NCBI GenBank assembly: GCA_951812925.1
Contig: OX638372.1
Location: forward strand, 52,574,028-52,638,027
DNA from: Calliopum simillimum
Taxonomy: Eukaryota > Arthropoda > Insecta > Diptera > Lauxaniidae
Length of the DNA: 64,000 nucleotides
Reading direction: 5' to 3'
Both the position numbers and the translations under genes were made by a program. Below, piece by piece: positions 1 through 55,690 of the stretch (positions within the stretch are counted from its first letter, which is position 1; the number at the start of each line of letters is the position of its first letter). The notes beneath the pieces were generated by a model. The model made no database searches, was not told the DNA's origin, and saw only the letters and a list, made by a program, of their open reading frames with translations.

Positions 1-11
1 AGCCAAATGTT

Positions 12-2609
12 GTGCCATATGGATTAAGGGCAAAAGTGGAAAGTGAGATTAAACGATTATGCGAAGAAGGCGTTTTAATTCCTGTTACGCGAAGCAAGTG
101 GGCGAGTCCCCTTGTAATAGTTAACAAAGGGGATGGTTCAGTGAGACTATGTGTCAATTGTAAGAACACTGTAAATAAGTTTGTAGAAAGTGAGCATATA
201 CCTATCCCCAGGATAGATGATATATTTGCTAACATGGCAGGATGGAAAAAGTTTTGTAAAATTGATCTATTGGGTGCGTATCTTCAAGTACAAGTAAGTG
301 AAAGATCTAGAGAATTGTTGACAATCAATACGCACGTAGGCTTGTTTCAATACACGCGATTAATTTTCGGATTGAAAACCGCACCTCAAATATTTAATGG
401 TATAATTTGCGAAATACTGAAAGGTTTAGAGAAAGTTCAAGTGTATTTTGATGATATTGTAATAGGTGGATCAGATTTAAAGGAGTGTGAGAAAAATTTA
501 GTTAGTGTTTTAGACCGCTTGAAACAGTTCAATGTACGGGTGAATAAAGAAAAGTGTATTTTCTTTGTAGATGAGCTCGAGTATTTAGGATATCATGTTA
601 GTGGTGCAGGTATTAAACCAAGTGAAAATAAAATAGAAGCAGTGTTAAAAGCTCCAGAACCAAAGAATAAAATGCAGCTAGCATCATATTTGGGGATGAT
701 AAATTATTATCATAAATGTGTACCGAATTTTTCGGGAGAATTTTCAAGTTTATACAAACTGAATAGCAAGAATGCAAAATGGGAATGGACTGCAGAGCAT
801 AGTGATAGTTTCAGAAAAAGTAAGAAGCTATTAACAAATATAGTAACCTTAGTCCACTATGATCCGTCCAAACCGATTGTTGTTTCTTGTGACGCAAGTC
901 CGTATGGTGTCGGAGGCGTATTATCGCATGTAATTAATGATGAGTTGAAGCCGGTTATGTATGTTTCCAGCACCTTGTCTGATGCGGAGAAGAATTATTC
1001 GCAGCTTCACAGGGAAGCACTTGCGATAGTATTTTCGGTGAAAAAATTTCACAAATATATTTACGGACTTCCATTTATAATTGAATCCGATCATCAACCG
1101 CTTCGAGCAATTTTTGATACGAAGAAAGATTTGTCGTCCGTAGCAGCGAATAGGCTGCAACGATGGTCTATTTTCTTATCAATGTACAATTATTCAATAA
1201 GGTATAAAAAAGGGTCTCAAATGGGGCACGCGGATGGGTTGTCACGACTTCCAATGGGAAATTGCACAGACGTGGAAGTAGACAGTATTAATAATGTTAA
1301 AATGGGTGAGTTTCCACTAAAGTTACAGGATATTCAAAGAGAATTGCAAAATGATGACATTCTTTTGAAAGTGTTGGATATAATTTCTACAAAAAGTTGG
1401 CCAGAAAAGATAACGAATGATTTGAAGCCTTATTTTTTGAAAAGACATTCACTTGGTAGTGAAGATAAGTGTTTATTTTATGGTGACAGAGTTGTCATAC
1501 CTTTGCGTTTGATAGATAATGTTTTAGAACTTTTACATGATGGTCACGTAGGCGTGGTGCGTATGAAAGCTATAGCCCGCTCTTATGTGTGGTGGCTAGG
1601 AATTGATAAGGATATAGAGCTTTATGCGAGAGGTTGTGAAGCTTGCCAAAGTTGCCAAAATATGCCAAAAACAATTTTGACTTCTTGGGAGCAGACTAAA
1701 TTTCCTTTTGAAAGGATTCACATAGATTTTTGTAAAGTCGTGGACAAAAATATTTTGATAATATTCGACGTGCATTCAAAATGGATAGACGCAATAACTT
1801 TGAAAAAAACTGATAGTAAGACAGTATGTGAGGAGCTTAGGAAAGTTTTTACGATTTTCGGATTGCCTAAGTCCTTAGTAAGTGACAATGGGCCGCCATT
1901 TGGTTCAGAGGAATTTTCTTTATTTTGCTCGCGTAATGGTATTCAAATGCTTAAGTCACCGTCGTATCACCCTGAATCCAATGGTAGCGCTGAAAGAGCA
2001 GTACAGACGATAAAGCAGGCTATAAAGAAAAGTCTTGTTGATATAAAAACCAGAAATTTACCCTTCGATTTAATATTGAGTAATATTTTATTAAAGTATC
2101 GAAATACACCATCAACAATCACTAACGAAACACCGGCAAAAATGTTATTTAATTTTAAGCCAAGAACTCTTTTAGATGTACTTGTTAGCAAAAAGGGGGA
2201 GGAAGGAAGTAAAATAATTAAAAAACAAAATAATATATTCAGTCAAGACTATACCAAAAGTATAAATTCGAAAAGATTTGATAAGAAAAGAAATTTTGAA
2301 GTTAATGAAATTGTATTATATCGCAATGTATTTTCAAATTACTTGAAATGGATTCCTGGAAAAATTATAAAAAAAATTAATAATTTGAGATTCATTGTAG
2401 ATGTAAATGGGTATCAGAAGCATGCTCATATTAATCAATTAAGAAAAAGAAACGAAAAGTATGTTAAGTTTAAATGTGCTACTATAGTGCATAGGGAAGT
2501 AATAGATAACAATCAAGAAACTTCTATAGATCGGGCACGAAGTCGTAGTCCAATAATCACTAGAAGCAAAGGGAAATTGTTAGAGAAGAAAAGATCTGAA
2601 TCTTGTTAA
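12..2609 (+). CDS. Ty3/gypsy pol polyprotein (RT-RNase H-integrase), 5' incomplete
   Basis: An 865-codon open frame with no stops or frameshifts. Reverse transcriptase comes first: LGAYLQV near residue 88 and a YFDD catalytic box near residue 145. RNase H follows, with Asp in SCDASPYGVGG near 294, Glu in LHREALAIV near 337 and Asp in ESDHQPL near 360. The integrase has an HHCC zinc finger (HDGHVG followed by CEACQSC, about 505-550) and a DDE core (HIDFC, SDNGPPFG, then the Glu in HPESNGSAERAV). A C-terminal domain with the WIPGKI motif follows. The protein copies element RNA and inserts the cDNA. The true start lies upstream of the window, so the first Met is only the first one visible. It resembles K02A2.6-like gypsy pols common in insects; the clade is not resolved. 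Confidence 0.93.
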   Translation: MPYGLRAKVESEIKRLCEEGVLIPVTRSKWASPLVIVNKGDGSVRLCVNCKNTVNKFVESEHIPIPRIDDIFANMAGWKKFCKIDLLGAYLQVQVSERSRELLTINTHVGLFQYTRLIFGLKTAPQIFNGIICEILKGLEKVQVYFDDIVIGGSDLKECEKNLVSVLDRLKQFNVRVNKEKCIFFVDELEYLGYHVSGAGIKPSENKIEAVLKAPEPKNKMQLASYLGMINYYHKCVPNFSGEFSSLYKLNSKNAKWEWTAEHSDSFRKSKKLLTNIVTLVHYDPSKPIVVSCDASPYGVGGVLSHVINDELKPVMYVSSTLSDAEKNYSQLHREALAIVFSVKKFHKYIYGLPFIIESDHQPLRAIFDTKKDLSSVAANRLQRWSIFLSMYNYSIRYKKGSQMGHADGLSRLPMGNCTDVEVDSINNVKMGEFPLKLQDIQRELQNDDILLKVLDIISTKSWPEKITNDLKPYFLKRHSLGSEDKCLFYGDRVVIPLRLIDNVLELLHDGHVGVVRMKAIARSYVWWLGIDKDIELYARGCEACQSCQNMPKTILTSWEQTKFPFERIHIDFCKVVDKNILIIFDVHSKWIDAITLKKTDSKTVCEELRKVFTIFGLPKSLVSDNGPPFGSEEFSLFCSRNGIQMLKSPSYHPESNGSAERAVQTIKQAIKKSLVDIKTRNLPFDLILSNILLKYRNTPSTITNETPAKMLFNFKPRTLLDVLVSKKGEEGSKIIKKQNNIFSQDYTKSINSKRFDKKRNFEVNEIVLYRNVFSNYLKWIPGKIIKKINNLRFIVDVNGYQKHAHINQLRKRNEKYVKFKCATIVHREVIDNNQETSIDRARSRSPIITRSKGKLLEKKRSESC

Positions 2610-2843
2610 TGCTAAAAATTTGTAAGGTATTTAATAATACTTTTATAATATTTTCAATAAATATAAATAAGAGTTAATAGTATAATTAAGTATATTGAAG
2701 TAAATATTATGAATTGGAATTATGCTATTAAGCTGACAATATGAATTAAACAAATAATTTAAAAATAATATGAACAATAACGTATCGCATTAATTTTAGG
2801 ATTAAGTTGTTTTTTAAATAAGGACATACGTTTAAAATAAAAC

Positions 2844-2995
2844 ATGGAGGAATTGTAGTGTATTAAACTATATTAATAATATGGCAACGCTAAGGTCATC
2901 TATGTAAACAGTAGTAATAAGAATTGAGTAATTTAATAAAGTTAGTCTGACTCTAACTACCTAAGCGCACACGTCTTTTACTTTTATACATAACA
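2844..2995 (+). repeat. Polypurine tract and putative 3' LTR
   Basis: A purine-rich run (ATGGAGGAA) sits directly before TGTAGTG at 2854. The following 142 bp end in CATAACA at 2995, giving the TG...CA termini expected of an LTR. Distance and order after pol fit a 3' LTR. The 5' LTR is outside the window, so identity between the two LTRs and the target duplication cannot be tested here. The right edge could be off by a few bases. Confidence 0.6.
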
Positions 2996-3044
2996 AACGT
3001 ATTATATAATATATTCTCCAAGTAATAAATTCAATACTTGGCTG

Positions 3045-3672
3045 CTGGGTAGCTACCAACAATGAAAATACATTGATGGTCGGAGCTTACTGTTCAGTGT
3101 TTTTGAGTAAAACAACAATAAAAACACAAAAAACAAGGCAAAAATACATATAAATAAAAAAAGCAAAAAAATGTATCGGAAGGCTGGTTTGCGTTACTAG
3201 TTTCGGGTCAAAATTGACTATAATAAGTCAATTCCTCATCAGACGTTTTGCCGACATCTTATAGAATTCTGCAAGCATACTTTATTTAACTTTTAGCATA
3301 GATTAGACGAGAATCACAGCTACAAGAAAAACAAGGCACATGCAAAAATTCCAATTTCTTTGTTTTTTCCCTTTATATGCATTGCCCTGCCGTTGTGAGT
3401 CATCGATATTATACTATTTTTGCATAGCGCTTCGTTTGCAAGGTTTTTTGCCGAGACAAAACGAAGTAGCAAGCGCATTCGTATGTTTATCAGTTGGCTC
3501 TCTGAGATTTTCTAGTTTTTTAGTTTTTGGAACAGATAATGATTTACATTATTAGCTACCAACAATGAAAATACATTGATGGTCGGAGCTTACTGTTCAG
3601 TGTTTGTGAACAACAATAAAAACACAAAAAACAAGGCAAAAATACATATAAATAAAAAAAGCAAAAAAATCG
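3045..3672. repeat. Non-autonomous element, family A (AGCTACCAA ends), duplicated
   Basis: A block of about 120 bp beginning AGCTACCAACAATG occurs twice in the same orientation, at 3051-3170 and 3554-3672. Between them lies DNA also found in the copy at 56516-56940, including a GAGAATCACAGC stretch and a TTATGCAT..GCCC stretch. A third relative is at 38881-39155. No coding frame is recognisable. The sequence AACAGATAATGA just outside the ends recurs beside all three copies, so the true boundary may be wider. Confidence 0.6.
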
Positions 3673-10000: not shown

Positions 10001-11713
10001 CGCCCCTCAAGAGTAAATTGACAGACGTGATTAGTAATGAGAATTTGTTTGAGCTGGGTGGTCTTTTTAAAGTCAAATCAAAATGGTCGCATTTCAGCCA
10101 CAAGGGAAAACTCTAGTAACTTTAAATAAGCTTCGAGACACCGATTTTTGCACTTTGAATCAAGAATATCTTTGAATTCGTGATAGAAAAAAAAAAAACC
10201 AAAACAGCCATACCTAAATAGGAGCGTTAGACGATTGTCAGCGTAATTTAACCGTCTCTGTTTCGGTATGCTCCATATGAATTGTATGGGCATGAAACAG
10301 AGATGGTAAAATACGCCTGGCCGAGAAAACCATGGGAAACCATTGTATGACGGTGATATTAAAGCAAATCAGTTATAAACTATTTTAAACTTCTTAGTTT
10401 ATTTTGTATGATGCAGAAAAATTAAAGTTTTCGATAATTTTTTTTTTTTTTTTGGATTTTCATCTATTGACGCATTTAAAATTAATACATAAGGCAACAT
10501 ACAATAATCAAAAACATAATTATATAATTTAAAAACATTAACTTAACAGTACTAGGTGTACAAATATGAAACCGGTAATGACATCTAGCGGTCGATAGCC
10601 GTTTATGTATGAGCTTCCGAACCGTACCAAATGTCTTAATTGTTCATTCTGTCATCTGTCAACAATATTCAGTTCACAATTTGTCAAGTTTCATACAACA
10701 ACGCATTTTTTCCGCTCGTAAAGATGTCGAATTTTGTGCCTGAAAAATCTCATTTGCGGGAAGCATTGGCGTTGATTTGGGTCGTTGGCCGGGGCTCAAA
10801 TATGATTTTTTTCGTTTGGGATTGTTGAAATAAATCCACTTTTCATCGCCAGTGATGATTCGATGGAGAAAACCTTTTCTGTTTTGCCTGGCGAGCAGCA
10901 ATTCACAAGTGGTTTTCCGGTTTTCTTGCTGCCTGTCGGTCAGTTCATGTGGCACCCATCTAACGACCTTTAAAATCTTTCCCATGGCCTTCAAACGCAA
11001 GGAAACGGTTTGTTGTGTCACATTAAGTTGTTCAGCAAGCTGTTGTTGCGTTTGACCATCATCATCGTCCAATAATGTTTGCAATTCGGTGTCTTCGAAC
11101 TTTTTCGGTGGTCGGCCGCGCTCATTTATCACATCAAAATCACCACTTTTAAATTTATTGAACCACTCATTGCACTGTGTACGACCAAGAGCATGCTCGC
11201 CGTAAGCTTCGACAAGCATTCGATGCGATTCAAAAGCGTTTTTCTTTAAATGGAAACAGAAAATCAATGCTTCCCGCAAATGAGAGTTTTCAGGCACAAA
11301 ATTCGACATCTTTTCGAGCGGAAAAAATGCGTTGTTGTATGAAACTTGACAAATTGTGAACTGAATATTGTTGACAGATGACAGAATGAACAATTAAGAC
11401 ATTTGGTACGGTTCGGAAGCTCATACATATACGGCTATCGACCGCTAGATGTCATTACCGGTTTCATATTTGTACACCTAGTAATATAATTCCAAAACTT
11501 GAAGCATAGATTTTGAGACAAATGTAAAATATTTAAAGTGAAATTAATTTTTAAAATTGTTCTTTTCTTTTTATATCTTTAGCAAACATTGGTGGAGTTG
11601 TTGGAATTTGCATGGGATGCTCTTTAATCAGTGGTTTTGAAATAGTCTACTTTTTAGGATATCGTTTCTTTGTGAAGCTATTAAAACTAAGCAAAGTTGG
11701 TGAAAAACTATAA
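7003..11713 (+). CDS. ppk: Pickpocket-family DEG/ENaC sodium channel (N-terminus not found)
   Basis: Six exons join in frame: about 7003-7128, 8314-8456, 8526-8995, 9053-9233, 9418-9527 and 11583-11713, all with GT donors and AG acceptors, giving about 386 residues. The product belongs to the amiloride-sensitive/DEG-ENaC cation channels of the plasma membrane, which in flies serve mechanical, chemical and nociceptive sensing. Seen in order: an extracellular start (EVIRK then LSPTCKDLILICNWAGS), TPIGNCCIFNY, the long ectodomain, a cysteine-rich stretch (HCYF, ECLTRC, CGCIPYY, CSECLPLC), and a final exon with GGVVGICMGCSLISGFEIVYF, which holds the selectivity-filter GxS and TM2. Stop at 11711. 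TM1 and the N-terminal tail were not recognised, and TE insertions lie upstream. The first exon's 5' edge is uncertain. Which ppk paralogue this is cannot be told by eye. Confidence 0.87.
7162..7792. mobile_element. MITE with 38-bp TIRs in a ppk intron
   Basis: GCCTGAACACAATGCG at 7162 begins a 38-bp inverted repeat that recurs inverted to 7792 (GCATTGTGTTCAGGC). The interior is AT-rich with no transposase. It sits in the ppk intron between the exons ending 7128 and starting 8314. Confidence 0.8.
9528..10551. other. ppk last intron, left part, with a family C repeat fragment
   Basis: This is intronic DNA with no coding exon seen. At 10198-10320 a segment with CCATACCTAAA, GGAGCGTTAG and GTCTCTGTTTCGGTATGCTC matches the repeats at 42.68, 45.52 and 50.23 kb (family C, ends ACTGCCATACCTAAATTGGA). 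The right end of this copy is missing or decayed. Confidence 0.45.
10552..11481 (-). mobile_element. Mos1-like mariner with two inverted 5' ends
   Basis: The element is flanked by TA (10550-10551 and 11482-11483) and ends CTAGGTGTACAAATATG / CATATTTGTACACCTAG. It is 930 bp, against about 1.3 kb for mariner elements. The left 217 bp are an inverted copy of the right-hand 5' end, reaching to the codons for SHLREAL of the transposase. The 3' half of the element, including the 3' inverted repeat, is missing. It lies in the last ppk intron. Confidence 0.9.
10769..11309 (-). pseudogene. mariner (mauritiana/Mos1-like) transposase, C-terminally deleted
   Basis: From Met at 11309 (MSNFVPE) an open frame of about 180 residues covers the bipartite helix-turn-helix region, the WVPHEL linker motif and the first catalytic Asp in TGDEKW. 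At about 10768 it breaks into the inverted 5' end, so the second and third catalytic Asp residues of the DD34D triad are absent. Mariner transposases are near 345 residues, so about half is lost. The remaining N-terminus is uninterrupted, so a DNA-binding-only fragment could in principle be made. Confidence 0.9.
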
Positions 11714-15311: not shown

Positions 15312-16300
15312 AATTATTAAGGTAACGTCAGCTTAGATGGTATTTCTTGCTCTTCTTTTTTTCAATTAGGCCTTTTACACGATAAGTCTATCTATTTTAT
15401 GAAAATGGTTATCAATATATCACTGGTTTACATGTTCAATAAACTCTCAATATTTAGGCCCAATATCACAATGTGACCTCAAGCGTGGTTTATCTGTTGA
15501 GTGTAGTTTAACTAAAAACTTAATTTTCAAAGTCATTTGAATTTGAGGGTCGCTTAAGCTCCTGTCATTTGACGCTTACAATAGTAAGAGCGGCTTAAGT
15601 GGCGTTTATGTCACAATAGACGTAAAAAAAAAAAAAAATTTAAAATAAACAAACCAAAAATTTATTTTAAAAAAATAAACAAATTTACAGAATTCAAGTA
15701 AGCAATTGTATTGTGATGTAAAGAGGCAGCAACAATCAAAGGAAGAGCATGGACGTATATCAATATATAAATCATATGCGCCTTTGGAAAGAAAGAACTC
15801 GAGATGACGAAAAACGGCAGCATATTGACAACATCGGCAATTTGAACGCGCTGCTTTCAATAATGCACAGTTCTTCCGAATTTCAAATAATCTGGAGTTC
15901 ACCTTAAATTTACAACCAGACGTACTAAATGCATTCAGAATATGCAGCACAATTGAATGGCAGGATACTTTGATGCAAGGAAATAATTTATGTGACAAAA
16001 AATATGGTACAAATGAAAGATAATAAGATTTTAATCGGCTTTTGACTTATAATTCAGATAAGGATATTTTACGTCAAAGTCGTTTACTGACAAATTTGCT
16101 TACCTTTATTTTCGGCTTGTATCTATGCTAATAAAAAAAGTGAGCTAGTAGTGTAAAAAATAGTGGGAATATCAAAATATACACTATACTAATTTTATGA
16201 ACTTTAGTCAATGTTTTGCAAGAATCGAAAATTCCATGCATTTTCCAACCTAGAATATTATGACAATTAGGAGAAGAGAAAAAACTACTGAACATGGCTA

Positions 16301-16346
16301 TGGTGACATATGTTTCGGTTACCGCCACGTAACCATCATCAGACCA
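16301..16346 (-). ncRNA. Hammerhead ribozyme motif (minus-strand copy)
   Basis: Read on the minus strand: UGGU, CUGAUGA, stem II GGUUAC/GUAACC with loop GUGGCG, GAAA, ACAUAUGU, C, ACCA. UGGU pairs with ACCA as stem I. It is identical to the plus copy at 16998-17043. One extra U separates the CUGAUGA core from stem II, which may lower activity. Confidence 0.8.
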
Positions 16347-16417
16347 ATTTATGTTTTTATTTAATTTATTTTAAATTAAATGAAATAACAATTGAAAAAT
16401 TTTTTGAACTTTTTGTC

Positions 16418-16505
16418 TGAGGCCGGGATCGATCTATGAACCTTTCGAAATCAATCTCTCTACATAGCGCATTTATCAACGGACTGCGCTGTGTGCCCTC
16501 GGAAT
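16418..16505 (-). other. tRNA-like head of left ribozyme unit
   Basis: This is the inverted copy of 16843-16926. The minus strand has an AGCGC/GCGCT arm and a TCGATCC segment resembling a B box. It is not a functional tRNA gene, since the acceptor pairing is incomplete. Confidence 0.45.
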
Positions 16506-16842
16506 AATTGGTAGCTTAAGTGCCTATATGCATGTAGCGTGGTTTCATTCTCTATACTCCTTTGTCATCATTCATGTTGTGTTTGTTTGGTAAGGCTCAG
16601 CCATTGGCTGAGAATCAATACCGTTATATTATATGACTGACAAGTGTTGCCAGTTGCACATATTTGGCGTGTTCTCCATGATTACTTAAAATGGTTTATG
16701 TTGACTATATGAAAATTATACTAATTTTATGAACTTTAGTCAATGTTTTGCAAGAATCGAAAATTCCATGCATTTTCCAACCTAGAATATTATGACAATT
16801 AGGAGAAGAGAAAAAAATAGGCACTTAAGCTACCAATTATTC

Positions 16843-16926
16843 CGAGGGCACACAGCGCAGTCCGTTGATAAATGCGCTATGTAGAGAGATTGATTTCGAA
16901 AGGTTCATAGATCGATCCCGGCCTCA
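16843..16926 (+). other. tRNA-like head of right ribozyme unit
   Basis: An AGCGC/GCGCT stem encloses a 15-nt D-loop-like sequence. GAGG and CCTC at the two ends can pair as part of an acceptor stem, and GATCGATCC resembles a pol III B box. It is taken as a tRNA-derived SINE head because two other members of the family have clearer tRNA-like heads at the same place. Confidence 0.45.
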
Positions 16927-16997
16927 GACAAAAAGTTCAAAAAATTTTTCAATTGTTATTTCATTTAATTTAAAATAAATTAAATAAAAACATAAAT

Positions 16998-17043
16998 TGG
17001 TCTGATGATGGTTACGTGGCGGTAACCGAAACATATGTCACCA
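16998..17043 (+). ncRNA. Hammerhead ribozyme motif (plus-strand copy)
   Basis: Stem I is UGGU (16998-17001) with ACCA (17040-17043). The core is CUGAUGA (17002-17008). Stem II is GGUUAC (17010-17015) with GUAACC (17022-17027), loop GUGGCG. GAA (17028-17030) is followed by short stem III in ACAUAUGU and cleavage-site C17 at 17039. Ends open through stem I, so type I. U17009 is one extra base between the core and stem II. Confidence 0.82.
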
Positions 17044-17419
17044 TAGCCATGTTCAGTAGTTTTTTCTCTTCTCCTAATTGTCATAATATTCTAGGTTGGA
17101 AAATGCATGGAATTTTCGATTCTTGCAAAACATTGACTAAAGTTCATAAAATTAGTATAATTTTCATATAGTCAACATAAACCATTTTAATATACACTAT
17201 ATATATTTATTTAAATGGGCCCACAGCAACAATTAGTCATTTTCAAAGCCACTTTATCACCAAGGGAAAGGGTTTTGATCTTTTTTAATTTGTTTTTTAT
17301 AGCCACTTTTAGTTTTAAACTAAAGAATCTTTGATTGTAATAATAACAATTAGATTTAAATAAATTGGTTTTGTCCTAGGTGCAAAATTAAAACCTACTC
17401 TTTAAGCTCTCATTAAGCC

Positions 17420-22589: not shown

Positions 22590-23085
22590 ATGATAAAGGG
22601 CTGGACATGGGCTGAACGTGGGCTTTTTTGCTTTTTTAAGGCCGTACTTGGTCTGTACAAAACTAAGAAAGCACAAAAGGCTGTACACACGGCTGAACAA
22701 GGGCTGTACAAAACTAAAAAAGCCCAAAAGGCTGTACACACGGCTGAACAAAGGCTGTAAAAAACTAAAAAAGCCCAAAAGGCTGTACATGCGGCAGTAC
22801 AAGGGCTGTACAAATGCACAAAAAAAAATTTGTGTAGAAAACAAATGGGCTGAACATGGGCTGTACATGGGCTGTACATGGGCTGTACAATTGAATTTTA
22901 CTATTGAAGTAGGCTGAACATGGGCTGTACATCGGCCGTACAATATATTTTGTATTTTTGAAATGGGCTGTACGTGGGCTGTACGTGGGCTGTGCGTGGG
23001 CTGTACATGGGCTGTACATGGGCTGTACAATTGAATTTTACTATTGAATTGGGCTGAACATGGGCCGTACAATTTATTTTTTCTA
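22590..23085. repeat. Tandem GGGCTGTACATGGGCTG array
   Basis: The left section has about four units of roughly 55 bp (GGGCTGTACAAAACTAAAAA type). The right section has short 10-12 bp units, GGGCTGTACAT, in runs. An inverted shorter array is at 23505-23650. All reading frames through it give repetitive peptides with no recognisable domain. Confidence 0.85.
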
Positions 23086-23164
23086 TTGACGTCAAAATAC
23101 AATTTTTTTTAAAATTTTTTTTATCATATAAAATTGAATGACAGAATAAATTTTCAACCAGCTA

Positions 23165-28156: not shown

Positions 28157-29398
28157 AAGGGTGTTTTTTTTAGAGGTTTGTTTTTCGAATAGAGATAAAA
28201 CTGGCATTTTGTGGTCAAATCTGGCAACTCTAATGTCATTTATGTTCAGTTTGGTTTGCCATTTCATCATGAACAGGTTGACAAAAGAACAACGCTTGCA
28301 AATCGTGCAAATTTATTTCGAAAATAATGGTTCAGTTCGCGAAGTTTACCGCAAGCTCGTTTTCGCACTACGTTTACTCTATGTGATAATACGCATCCGC
28401 AGAGACGTCGAACAGTGCGCACCGAAGAAACAATTGCCGCTGTAGAGCAAAATGTTGAAGAGGACCCGAATGAATCGATTCGCCACCGTGCACAGCAATT
28501 GGAGCTTTGTCCATCAACTTTATGGAAGATTTTGCGCAAAGATCTTGGCTTGCGACCTTACAAGATCCAGCTTGTGCAAGAATTAAAGCCGCGAGACCAT
28601 GCAATGCGTCGTGATTTTGGTGTATGGACCGAAAATGAGATTGATCTCGATGCTGATTTTCATCGCAAAATTTTGTTCAGTGATGAGGCTCATTTTTGGT
28701 TGAATGGCTACGTCAACAAGCAAAATTGCCGCATTTGGAGTGAAGAGAATCCACATGAGACCCTTGAGACGCCATTACATCCACAAAAACTGACTGTTTG
28801 GTGTGCTCTATGGGCTGGTGGAGTCATTGGGCCATACTTCTTCCGAAATAATGCTGGAGAGTCAGTTACCGTTAATGGAGACCGGTATAGAGCCATGATA
28901 ACCGACTATTTTGTTCCCGAATTGGATGGCATGAATGTGGATGAGTTGTGGTTCCAACAAGACGGCGCTACATGCCACACAGCGCACGTCACAATCGATT
29001 TATTGAAGGAAACATTCGATGAGCGCATAATTTCGCGGAATGGACCTGTCAATTGGCCACCAAGATCGTGTGGTTTGACACCATTGGATTATTTTCTTTG
29101 GGGATATGTTAAGTCGCTCGTCTACGCCAACAAACCAGAAACGTTAGGGGACTTGGAAGCCAACATTCGTACCGTTATTGCCGACATACGGCCCGATATG
29201 CTCGAAAAAGTGGTTGAAAGTTGGACCTGCAAAATTGGCTTTATTCGAGCCAGCCGCGGCGGCCACATGCCCGAAATCATATTTAAACATTAATGGCATA
29301 AAATTATCCTTCCAATAAAGCCAAATTGATGGACATTAAAACGATTTTCTTGTGTTTTATTTCAATTCGAAAATCTATACCTCTAAAAAAACACCCTT
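28157..29398 (+). mobile_element. DD41D mariner-like element with AAGGGTGTTTTTTTAGAGG ends
   Basis: Perfect-looking inverted ends AAGGGTGTTTTTTTTAGAGG and CCTCTAAAAAAACACCCTT flank a 1242-bp element with TA at 28155-28156 and 29399-29400. It lies in the proposed first intron of HDAC6 and is the best preserved DNA transposon in the window. Confidence 0.9.
28270..29293 (+). pseudogene. DD41D (rosa-like) mariner transposase, internal deletion
   Basis: The N-terminus starts at 28270 (MNRLTKEQRLQIVQ). At about 28352 a small deletion shifts the frame; the rest reads on from about 28415 without stops to 29293. Catalytic residues are present: FSDEAHF, then WFQQDGATCH, then LTPLDYFLWGY. There are 41 residues between the last two Asp, which places it in the DD41D group. 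Only the helix-turn-helix region is damaged, so the C-terminal 292-codon frame (28415-29293) remains open. Confidence 0.88.
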
Positions 29399-52594: not shown

Positions 52595-53263
52595 TTTAAT
52601 AGCTGATAATTTGAATTTAAATTGAGGAACTACATAAAATTCACGAAAATGTTTAACTCGTGGTTGTTTATTATTTTTTATTTGACAGCTCACTTTGAAA
52701 GTGTTGCCAGCTTTTGTTTGTAGATGCAGGGCTGCTCGCTGCTCTTAAATAGTTTAAATAAACTTTAGTACGACTGGTGGTCATTTTTGTTTTTTCTTTA
52801 AGTTCCACTAGAGATTTATAAATATAGTTCTCGTACTAGACTTATAGACGATATTTATAAGTCCAGTTGTCATAAGCCTCTTAATATTTAGCTAATCAGA
52901 GTAAGTTGTTGTCTTTGTTCAATAATTCTAAAAACTTTGGAAAAAACTTCTTAGCAGGTATATATTTTTGTTTGCCAATAAAAAAAAGGATTTATGAAGG
53001 AAAATCAGCGGTGTTAGAAAACGGTTTAGAATAATCGCAATAAAAAAAAAAAAAAATGTCATTAAGTAACACACTTAAAAATTCTTAAAAAGTTATTTGG
53101 GAGAACACGCCCTGATAAGGTGGAAACACCTGCAATCGGTATTGAATTTGTTCCAAAGGAACAACTATACCAAATATCAATAAATAACACAAACAACAAT
53201 TATGATATATCAATACGTATTAACACACAAACAAAACTGGCAAAAGTCGGCTTCGCAGCAGGG
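52595..53263. other. Intergenic DNA upstream of PAK1IP1
   Basis: Must include the PAK1IP1 promoter. No TATA box or named element can be assigned. AT-rich, with no repeat recognised. Confidence 0.35.
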
Positions 53264-53333
53264 CAAGGCTGGTGTAGTGGTAACGACTGCTGCTACCAAC
53301 CTGGAGATCCTTGGTTCGACTCCCGCCCAGACC
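53264..53333 (+). other. tRNA-like head of the 53.3 kb ribozyme SINE
   Basis: GGTGTAGTGGTAACGAC resembles an A box and D arm, and CTTGGTTCGACTCCCGC contains a good B box and T loop. Spacing of about 35 bp between them is in the tRNA range. The acceptor ends GGCTGG / CCAGACC partly pair. It is the clearest head in the family, but no valid anticodon arm could be assigned. Confidence 0.6.
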
Positions 53334-53417
53334 AAAAACCACAAAAAGTTTTCAAACTTGCAATTTTTCAATTATAATTAATTTAGTAAAATAAATATAA
53401 TTATAATTACAACAAAA

Positions 53418-53464
53418 ATAGTCTGATGAGTCTTTGTGGCGAAAGACGAAACATATGTCACTAT
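53418..53464 (+). ncRNA. Hammerhead ribozyme, type I, canonical core
   Basis: Stem I: AUAGU (53418-53422) with ACUAU (53460-53464), 5 bp. Core CUGAUGA (53423-53429). Stem II: GUCUUU (53430-53435) with AAAGAC (53442-53447), 6 bp, loop GUGGCG. GAA (53448-53450), then A-C..G-U short stem III with loop AUAU, and cleavage-site C17 at 53459 (GUC). All invariant core bases are present. ACAUAUGU is self-complementary, so a dimer could make an 8-bp stem III, as is known for other minimal hammerheads. Confidence 0.93.
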
Positions 53465-53689
53465 AGCCGTGTTTTTAATCCGTTCCTTGATTTGTCATAA
53501 TTATGTGTTAGAAAAATGCATTGATAGATTTATATGTAAATCGATCTTTGCAAATATATGACTAAAAGTTCAATTAAAAAATCAATTTTCTATATAAAAA
53601 AAAAAAAACAAAAAATACGCGTGGAACTCAGAACACGGTAAGGAAGTAAAATTTTTGTTTAAAAAGTTGCTGTGGCATCAATTGAATAT

Positions 53690-54100
53690 CTAGATATTCT
53701 TCGTTTTGACTATAAAGCCTTGGGGAGACCTTCGAGCGCCCCAAGAAATGAATCACTTACAGCTTGTTGAAAGTGTTCGATAGATTTTTTCCCTCTATTA
53801 TACCTAGATATTTTTCGTTTTTAGTATGACGCCATTACCTTCGGGAACCATCGGATGTACCAGGAACTGAATCAATTAAAGCTTGTTGATAGTGGGAAAT
53901 ATACTTATTTGTTTTCTCTCTATCCTGATATTTTTCGTTTTGACTGTGAAGCCTTCGGCTGACCTTTGGAAACCTTCAATTGTCGCTGGAAATGAATCAA
54001 ATAAAGCTTGATGATACTTCGCCATAGATTTTTTTCCTCTTGTTTATCTAAATATTCTTCGGTTTGACTATGAAGCCTTCGGGTGAACTTCAGGTATTCC
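53690..54100. repeat. Tandem repeat of about 120-bp units
   Basis: Four diverged units each containing ATATTTTTCGTTTTGACT, GAAGCCTTCGG, GGAA.TGAATCAA.TAAAGCTTG(T/A)TGATA and TTTTTTCCTCT. Starts are near 53693, 53807, 53929 and 54050. Satellite-like, no coding. Confidence 0.85.
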
Positions 54101-54319: not shown

Positions 54320-55690
54320 AATTTGGAAAAGTGCGCGTACGAACAATTTTATAAATTCGTGTGTGATAATAAAATTTTGATAGAAAATCAGTAAGGCTTT
54401 CGCCATGATCACTCATGTGAAACGTCTTTAAATTGGCTGACAACAACTCTTAAAGAAGAGAGACATGGTGGCAATAAAATAATAACACTATTTTTGGACT
54501 TTCAAAGAGCTTTTGAAACTATTGATCGAGATATACTTCTCAGTAATTTATCCAAATATGGTATTAAGGGCTCTGAGCTGGAATGGTTCAGATCGTACTT
54601 AACAGACAGAACACAAGTGACAAATATAAATAATGAAACGTCGAGTGCAATTAAAACATGTTTCGGTGTCCCACAAGGAACCATTCTAGGTCCCTTACTG
54701 TTCCTGTTATACATAAACGATATCTGTAAAGTATTAAAAAAGTGTAAAATATCATTGTTTGCAGATGATGCCCTATTGTTTATAAGTGGTAAAAACTTGA
54801 GTGAACTCATTGAAGGTATAACAGAAGATTCAAACAATCTTTGTGTATGGCTTCGAATAAACAAATTAAAAATAAATGTTAATAAGACTAAATGTATGGT
54901 GGTCAATAGTAATGAAACAGTAAATTTAATGATAGATGGAAAACCCATAGAACAAGTGAATGAAATTAAATATTTGGGTGTTATACTCGATTCTAAACTG
55001 AACTTTCATAGTCATATGACATACGTGGCGAAAAAAATCTCAAAGAAAATAGGGTTCCTCAAGAGAATAAGAAAAAATGTTACCATAATGTTTGCCATTA
55101 ATATATATAACACAATAATTAAACCTCATTTTGAGTTTTGTTCAACTATTTTGTTCATGGGCAATAATGAACAAATAAATAAATTTCAAATGCTACAAAA
55201 TAAAGCTATGAGAACTATTCTCAAATGTAGTTTTTATACACCAATTGTGTGGATGCTATCGTGTCTAAAATGGCTAAATATTAAACAACGAATCATCTTT
55301 AACGTCCTGCGGTTCGTGTTTAAAATGAAAAACAACATGGTACCTAAGTATCTAACGTCGAGCTTGATTTCCGTTGGTGACTCGCAGCCGTACACTTTGA
55401 GATCAAACTCTGATTTTCGACTTCAGCAGTATAGAGACTCCAGAACTCAAAATCAATTAAATTATCGTGGCCTCAAATTGTTTAATGAATTGCCATCAAC
55501 AATAAAAACAGAAAATAACTTAAGAAGATTTAAAAGACTGCTTATTATTCATCTCAAAGATAATGTTATATAATTATTTTATTTGTTTTCTAAATAGTCT
55601 TAATTAAATATTATGTAATTTATAAATTTATAGCAGAATTTAATAGTTATATTAACTAAATAAATAAATACGTACGTACATACATACTAC
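54320..55690 (+). mobile_element. CR1/L2-like non-LTR retrotransposon, 5'-truncated
   Basis: Starts within the reverse transcriptase region (KCAYEQFYKFVCDNKILIEN) and runs to a 3' end with AATAAATAAATACGTACGTA tail repeats. Clade assignment is by eye from the RT and C-terminal motifs. Confidence 0.8.
54374..55573 (+). pseudogene. Non-LTR reverse transcriptase, C-terminal portion
   Basis: One stop falls between IENQ and GFRHDHSCETSL near 54392. From there the frame is open to 55573: LDFQRAFETIDRDIL, GVPQGTILGPLLFLLYINDI, the catalytic FADD in LFADDALLF, KTKCMVV, IKYLGVILD, and a C-terminal region with RAMRTILK-like and LNYRGLKLFNELP motifs. The open part from Met 54494 is 359 codons. The missing 5' half and the stop make it inactive. 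Confidence 0.88.

Follow-up and report, generated by a model that had tools for sequence, protein, structure and literature searches.

A hammerhead-bearing repeat of a fly genome is probably a non-autonomous retrozyme mobilised by Penelope-like elements

What is the short, repeated element with a hammerhead motif that occurs in the 64-kb stretch of fly DNA analysed here (hereafter the window), and by what means does it move? The earlier note on this DNA had described it, at 53264..53600, as a tRNA-headed, pol III-type retroposon carrying a complete type I hammerhead ribozyme, possibly belonging to an undescribed fly SINE family. The answer reached here is a different one, namely that the element is probably a non-autonomous retrozyme, mobilised in trans by a Penelope-like element (PLE). 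As the unit encodes no enzyme, the link to PLEs is made by signature only. Coordinates of the features within the window are collected in Table 1.

Table 1. Features of copy A and of the composite insertion B/C in the window
Feature	Position	Strand	Remarks
Left 13-nt target-site duplication AATATACACTATA	16176..16188		
Composite insertion B/C	16189..17188		two head-to-head arms; element 3' ends at both borders, lying 116 and 149 nt beyond the predicted cut
Minus arm, 631 nt	16189..16819	-	end of one unit (16686-16819), then the next unit, at a spacing of 532 nt
Hammerhead motif of arm B	16300..16348	-	extra U after CUGAUGA; stem II sequence unlike copy A
B-box-like AGATCGATCCC in head of unit B	16425..16435	-	a good A box was not seen
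Plus arm, unit truncated at its 5' side, with the long tail	16820..17188	+	about 370 nt; junction placed to within a few bases
Hammerhead motif of arm C	16996..17044	+	identical to arm B motif
Right 13-nt target-site duplication AATATACACTATA	17189..17201		
Left 15-nt direct repeat of copy A (ATA plus A-run)	53040..53054		low complexity; possible target-site duplication only
Copy A, one full unit (539 nt)	53057..53595	+	GC 0.32; full-score copies elsewhere in the genome
tRNA-like head	53261..53342	+	A box 53270-53280, B box 53313-53323
T5 run between B box and ribozyme	53364..53368	+	likely pol III stop
Type I hammerhead motif of copy A	53418-53464	+	stems of 5 bp (I) and 6 bp (II); palindrome ACATATGT as stem III
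Region past predicted cut to short 3' end, 136 nt	53460..53595	+	
Right 15-nt direct repeat of copy A	53594..53608		pair to 53040..53054

The first point to settle is whether the hammerhead is real. Its core bases and all three stems were found exactly where the earlier note had placed them, the motif reading ATAGT-CTGATGA-GTCTTT-GTGGCG-AAAGAC-GAA-ACATATGT-C-ACTAT, with the type I core (CUGANGA...GAAA...UH), stems I and II paired and cleavage predicted after C53459. A strict scan of both strands of the window (CTGATGA, stem II of at least 4, stem III of at least 3 and stem I of at least 4) returned this motif as its sole match, against none in 300 dinucleotide shuffles. With a looser pattern there were five matches where 1.02 were expected (five were reached by one of 100 shuffles), and two of these, at 16305-16342 on the minus strand and 17002-17039 on the plus strand, are related to copy A. 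They define a second family, seen in the two arms (B and C) of a single composite insertion, which the strict scan had missed because one extra U follows CUGAUGA. Aligned units A and B agree at 57% only. Between their hammerheads, 5 of 14 stem pairs are changed on both sides (slid controls gave 0-1) and one pair is lost in B, while core letters, loop II and the palindrome are identical; since B and C stem from one insertion and were counted once, this covariation compares two sequences only. The coexistence of two families with covarying hammerheads suggests that the ribozyme has been maintained while the remainder of the unit diverged.

Compensatory stem changes were among the things on which the earlier note had made its reading depend, together with genome-wide copies, which exist (see below), and a significant covariance score, which is lacking where Rfam is concerned. 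No Rfam match in the window attained a gathering score, the best weak match of copy A being to RF00008 (type III; 22.7 bits, E 0.03), and the B/C hammerheads had no hammerhead match at E ≤ 10. A ribozyme model built from copies A and B (R1) scores highly inside the window by construction. Five scattered matches from a pattern scan of prokaryote contigs scored at most 15.9 bits with R1 and were taken as unrelated, and viral contigs gave no match in two pattern scans. A weak match to R1 lies on a Psychromonas contig (L002:6385-6480; 15.9 bits, E 0.22). A chance motif is rejected by the strict scan against shuffles, the covariation and the genome-wide copy number, and by these measures, all of them taken on sequence, the hammerhead motif is genuine.

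How such a ribozyme might act is suggested by its predicted folds. Minimum free energies of the hammerheads are no better than those of shuffled sequence (z 0.02 and -0.98), and the canonical monomer fold is predicted at -4.0 kcal/mol with stem III and -4.9 without, so that stem III is of no help within a single strand (the best monomer fold comes to -6.7 kcal/mol). A dimeric hammerhead with an 8-bp palindromic stem III is predicted at -19.8 for A and -28.0 for B, while the best dimer folds irrespective of shape have -21.0 and -30.6, respectively. These computed energies fit, short of proof, a dimer mode of the kind described for amphibian and PLE hammerheads (PMC7229834, PMC7761336; excerpts of both), and they make the dimeric form that the earlier note had proposed for self-cleavage a plausible one.

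The element is abundant. In the 690-Mb genome, the motif CTGATGA-N8..30-CGAAACATATGTC has 2,973 exact matches (1,489 + 1,484), and its reversed control has none. Units of 531-545 nt are arranged in tandem or head-to-head. Among the first 100 of the 2,973 places, all on the first 33 Mb of contig C1, 51 of 71 clusters are single, the tandem spacings are 406, 531-545 and, once, 1,076, and neighbours are divergent in 14 cases and convergent in none. A DNA search with copy A, in which 40 of 1,635 candidates were scored, returned at least 148 pieces, including at least five rows with full score across 539 nt (that of the window among them) and a largest array of seven pieces; such full-score copies, along with the seven-piece array, make recent activity likely. 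Could it then be a hammerhead satellite, spreading chiefly by recombination and unequal exchange? Tandem arrays of up to seven pieces, one array standing at base 1 of contig C1, would agree with this, but the preponderance of single clusters among those first 100 places, and the target-site duplications and recurrent ends detailed below, speak against it and render it exceedingly improbable; in its pure form, it is rejected on account of the dispersed single insertions with duplications. The array at the start of C1 (L048:1-3500, C1 bases 1-3500) is built from a variant of the unit that measures 406 nt and whose loop II is larger (GTGGCGAACG), is interrupted by about 670 nt of other sequence and has hammerheads recurring at 1,482 nt, and the contig itself starts three bases before the predicted cut site, inside this array.

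Copy A begins near 53057, about 200 nt 5' of the tRNA-like head, so the element is longer than the earlier note had it. No stop-to-stop ORF of at least 130 aa overlaps copy A and, at the same threshold, no ORF with RT and GIY-YIG domains was found in the unit, which is thus not a PLE itself and is PLE-like in insertion only. Tandem units with a type I hammerhead, low GC (0.32 and 0.35) and no ORF of at least 130 aa are what characterises non-LTR retrozymes. As A-runs flank copy A, its direct repeat is weak evidence. A short way 3' of copy A, at 54395-55573, there is a 392-aa ORF that by eye resembles the end of a LINE reverse transcriptase, and degenerate direct repeats of about 120-125 nt occupy 53682-54091, between the two. 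The arms of the composite insertion B/C meet at their 5' sides. Its minus arm amounts to 1.19 units, and its 631 nt over a period of 532 nt show that the template exceeded one unit, either as a linear multimer or as a circle. Over the 337 bases compared, no difference separates the plus arm from the second minus-arm unit; the repeated tails differ by one base, which lies at the junction.

This head-to-head structure recurs elsewhere in the genome. In 40 insertion clusters assembled from the 148 pieces (their sites may overlap the first 100 motif places), orientation switches from minus to plus 27 times and from plus to minus twice, both of the latter within compound clusters, and the element 3' end is found at both outer ends in 25. 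Ends were called long when the piece continues for 32-43 nt into the following unit, as happens at 23 ends, and short otherwise. The short class is a loose one: its 42 ends cover unit positions 404-539, although 36 fall at 523-539. With these definitions, the 25 clusters have exactly one long end in 20 cases, two short ends in 5 and two long ends in none, and when 20 long ends are dealt randomly over 50 ends the absence of a double-long cluster occurs in about 0.1% of cases. The remaining 15 of the 40 clusters have a 5' end at one outer side, for which short inverted or tail pieces below the search threshold may be responsible.

Measured from the predicted cut, the 3' ends of 26 loci form two classes in each family, about 125-146 and 161-184 nt in family A and about 118-131 and 150-156 nt in family B, the exceptions, in family A, being L016 (3 nt) and L023 (96 nt); the ends of L050 and L054 are either cut by the reference or different. 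At C1:119806119-119806988, one plus arm stops at unit position 404, a single base beyond the predicted cut at 403, which could reflect a template ending at the cut, or chance. Direct repeats of at least 12 nt flank 15 of 25 loci (23 of the 26, plus the two window insertions), with a mode of 13 nt (9 loci), compared with 0.9% of 1000 control placements; they are absent from the other 10, and where present they often begin or stop several nt inside the BLAST ends, end positions being good to about 10 nt. Most copies, not all, show head-to-head inverted ends, a tail at one end and a target duplication. Paired 3' ends, a single tail and direct repeats together constitute a Penelope-like insertion signature. 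PLEs have inverted pseudo-LTRs (pLTRs) with an optional 31-bp tail on one of them and target-site duplications of 8-10 bp, and their copies are most often head-to-head (PMC3846280, excerpt). In vitro, both DNA strands are cut and extended in PLE insertion and reverse transcription starts internally, inside the ORF at 111-118 nt from its beginning; the hammerhead cut lies at +26. Speaking against the present reading, insertion of this one PLE in vitro did not require hammerhead cleavage, and its hammerhead stayed uncut without protein (PMC11167929).

Where does this leave the tRNA-headed SINE? Under strict criteria, the A/B-box pair of the head is matched nowhere else in the window, and none of 200 shuffles contains such a pair; it remains the sole match with a looser B box, 0.325 being expected. 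This unique, tRNA-like box spacing is in favour of a SINE, as is the paired tRNA-like D-arm seen by eye in the L048 variant; the fold of the head has a z of -2.12, with 7 of 200 shuffles equally good. Against it stand (i) the roughly 200 nt of unit that lie upstream of the head in both families, (ii) the lack of an Rfam tRNA match for the head, (iii) a run of T5 or longer in the 110 nt that precede the ribozyme, seen in each of the 11 A copies (of 26) whose head is covered, (iv) a B box that is missing in 6 of the 15 A-type copies whose head is recognisable (the L048 array supplies two of the 15), 11 having an A box, 9 a B box and 5 both, (v) the lack of a poly(A) end in composite copy B/C and (vi) the outward 3' ends on both sides of 25 of the 40 clusters, where a LINE-type insertion would have a single 3' junction. 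Within the 11 A copies, the B-box columns are more variable (0.099) than the whole stretch (0.045). This comparison concerns A copies, only 1 of 20 B copies having passed the head filter (the reference was probably the truncated plus arm), and the low variability of the hammerhead block in it was set aside as biased, the copies having been selected by exact motif. Between the two families the heads are poorly alike, with agreement at 10 of 34 aligned positions in one block of 40 columns. A plain SINE is rejected on account of the paired 3' ends, the T5 runs and the missing B boxes, and a LINE-moved pol III SINE with a hammerhead in its body is very unlikely. What survives of the earlier note's retroposon is a mobile element with a tRNA-like head; its pol III nature is not supported. 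We think it fairly likely that the head derives from a tRNA by origin and unlikely that it is a working pol III promoter.

If the retrozyme is mobilised by a PLE, candidate helpers are found in the same genome. Scoring 150 out of 209 candidates gave at least 51 GIY-YIG matches; among the matches listed, opposite-strand pairs closer than 5 kb number four, and by our reading all four are divergent. Domains of both kinds, RT and GIY-YIG, are encoded by ORFs at loci L058 (841 aa) and L060 (673 aa). At locus L059 a PLE is inserted head to head, with a 14-nt repeat and outward 3' ends. These ends correspond to L058 positions 3854 and 3878 and lie 112-113 and 136-138 nt beyond the predicted cut; with the repeat taken as marking the border, the distances become about 102 and 132 nt. 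The ends thus fall about 102-113 and 132-138 nt past the hammerhead-like motif of this PLE, as against 116 and 149 nt for B/C in the window. Long inverted repeats at 99% occur at L062 (964 nt) and L063 (1,057 nt), with a flanking repeat of 8 nt only at the former and none at the latter.

The presence of these PLEs brings in another alternative, according to which the copies would be solo or deleted pLTRs of one autonomous PLE family and not independent non-autonomous units. PLEs do have hammerheads in their pLTRs (PMC7761336, excerpt), and the PLE family of L058 and L061 has a hammerhead-like motif of its own (L058:3709, L059:3629 on the minus strand, L061:699 and 3224), which occurs twice in L061, 2,525 nt apart, and shares the extra U of family B after CUGAUGA; the relaxed scan behind these positions was run without shuffle control, and one match in L039 looks like chance. 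Decayed A-like pieces beside a PLE fragment in L046 point the same way. On the other hand, the units build ORF-less tandems, and none of 18 PLE loci (part of the at least 51 GIY-YIG places) contains an intact A or B hammerhead, so that this alternative appears quite unlikely. BLAST of units A and B against these 18 loci found nothing but the pieces in L046 and a 17-nt match in L060. The former, a pair at L046:200-870 with a spacing of 471 nt, have a ribozyme core that is mutated and lie beside an RT/GIY-YIG fragment of a PLE.

For a retrozyme mobilised in trans, which remains our preferred reading, we infer a cycle in which (i) tandem copies would be transcribed into multimers, (ii) pairs of hammerheads, joined via the 8-nt palindrome, would cut these into units, possibly circularised afterwards, (iii) the RT/GIY-YIG protein of a PLE would bind the region just 3' of the ribozyme and cut both strands of AT-rich DNA, (iv) reverse transcription would begin at either of two internal positions of the RNA, a few tens of nt from each other, and (v) the two cDNAs would join head to head, with a target-site duplication of about 13 bp as the result. 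The product would usually have one short and one long 3' end, and would sometimes contain more than one unit. It is in keeping with such a cycle that the pLTRs of PLEs suffice to move unrelated sequence in trans (PMC3846280, excerpt). A more ambitious version, tentative and on balance unlikely, makes the element a three-part parasite with a tRNA-derived internal promoter, a hammerhead that acts as a dimer to yield unit-length circles and a Penelope recognition region, the circular RNA bringing its own promoter along and the Penelope enzyme copying from two fixed internal sites, one per DNA strand. If true, it would reveal the mobiliser of animal retrozymes and a new role for a tRNA head.

Several known systems come close. 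Small hammerheads associated with PLEs and cutting as dimers were reportedly described by Lunse, Weinberg and Breaker in 2017, and the present ones share with them a very short stem III and an expected dimer action, here within ORF-less units. SMalpha of Schistosoma has pol III boxes. It has also been presented as a short SINE-like retroposon of 335 bp with a type I hammerhead (Ferbeyre 1998, via an excerpt of PMC8490949), a likeness to the fly element that is one of description only, across different lineages. Animal non-LTR retrozymes, as characterised in an excerpt of PMC7229834, which mentions insects in one sentence, resemble it in having a type I hammerhead, low GC, many copies, duplications of more than 4 bp and tandem arrangements that range from dimers to multimers; they measure about 170-400 nt, as against 531-545 nt here (406 nt in one variant), and the tRNA-like head and the short palindromic stem III set the present element apart from them, as does its clear PLE insertion signature, no such signature being described in the excerpt. 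With PLEs it has in common head-to-head insertion, a tail at one end, two reverse transcription start sites, target duplications, a hammerhead shortly before the 3' end and partial tandems (PMC11167929; PMC3846280, excerpt), while the RT/GIY-YIG ORF of PLEs is missing from the unit. Among insects, Aedes aegypti, likewise a dipteran, has hammerheads in interspersed repeats (PMC3088659, excerpt), the likeness here being one of hammerhead and repeat status alone, and pDo500 of Dolichopoda is a hammerhead-bearing repeat of about 500 bp whose multimers are cut to monomers but which is a satellite making up about 5% of the genome, with no retroposition signature described in the excerpt (PMC2837043).

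Among the entries listed in our literature searches there was no described fly family of this kind, a statement limited to those entries. Penelope-like elements and Terminons have been named in a review as no more than likely candidates for moving animal retrozymes (PMC7761336, excerpt), and a genome in which retrozyme-like copies with Penelope-type ends exist beside Penelope ORFs of similar end geometry makes the question of the mobiliser directly testable. Other features are found in the window as well: tandem arrays of GGCTGTACA-type units (11, 51, 53, 87 nt and others) at 22653-23089, and transposase-like ORFs, mariner/Tc1-like by eye, at 10674-11393 and 28328-29293.
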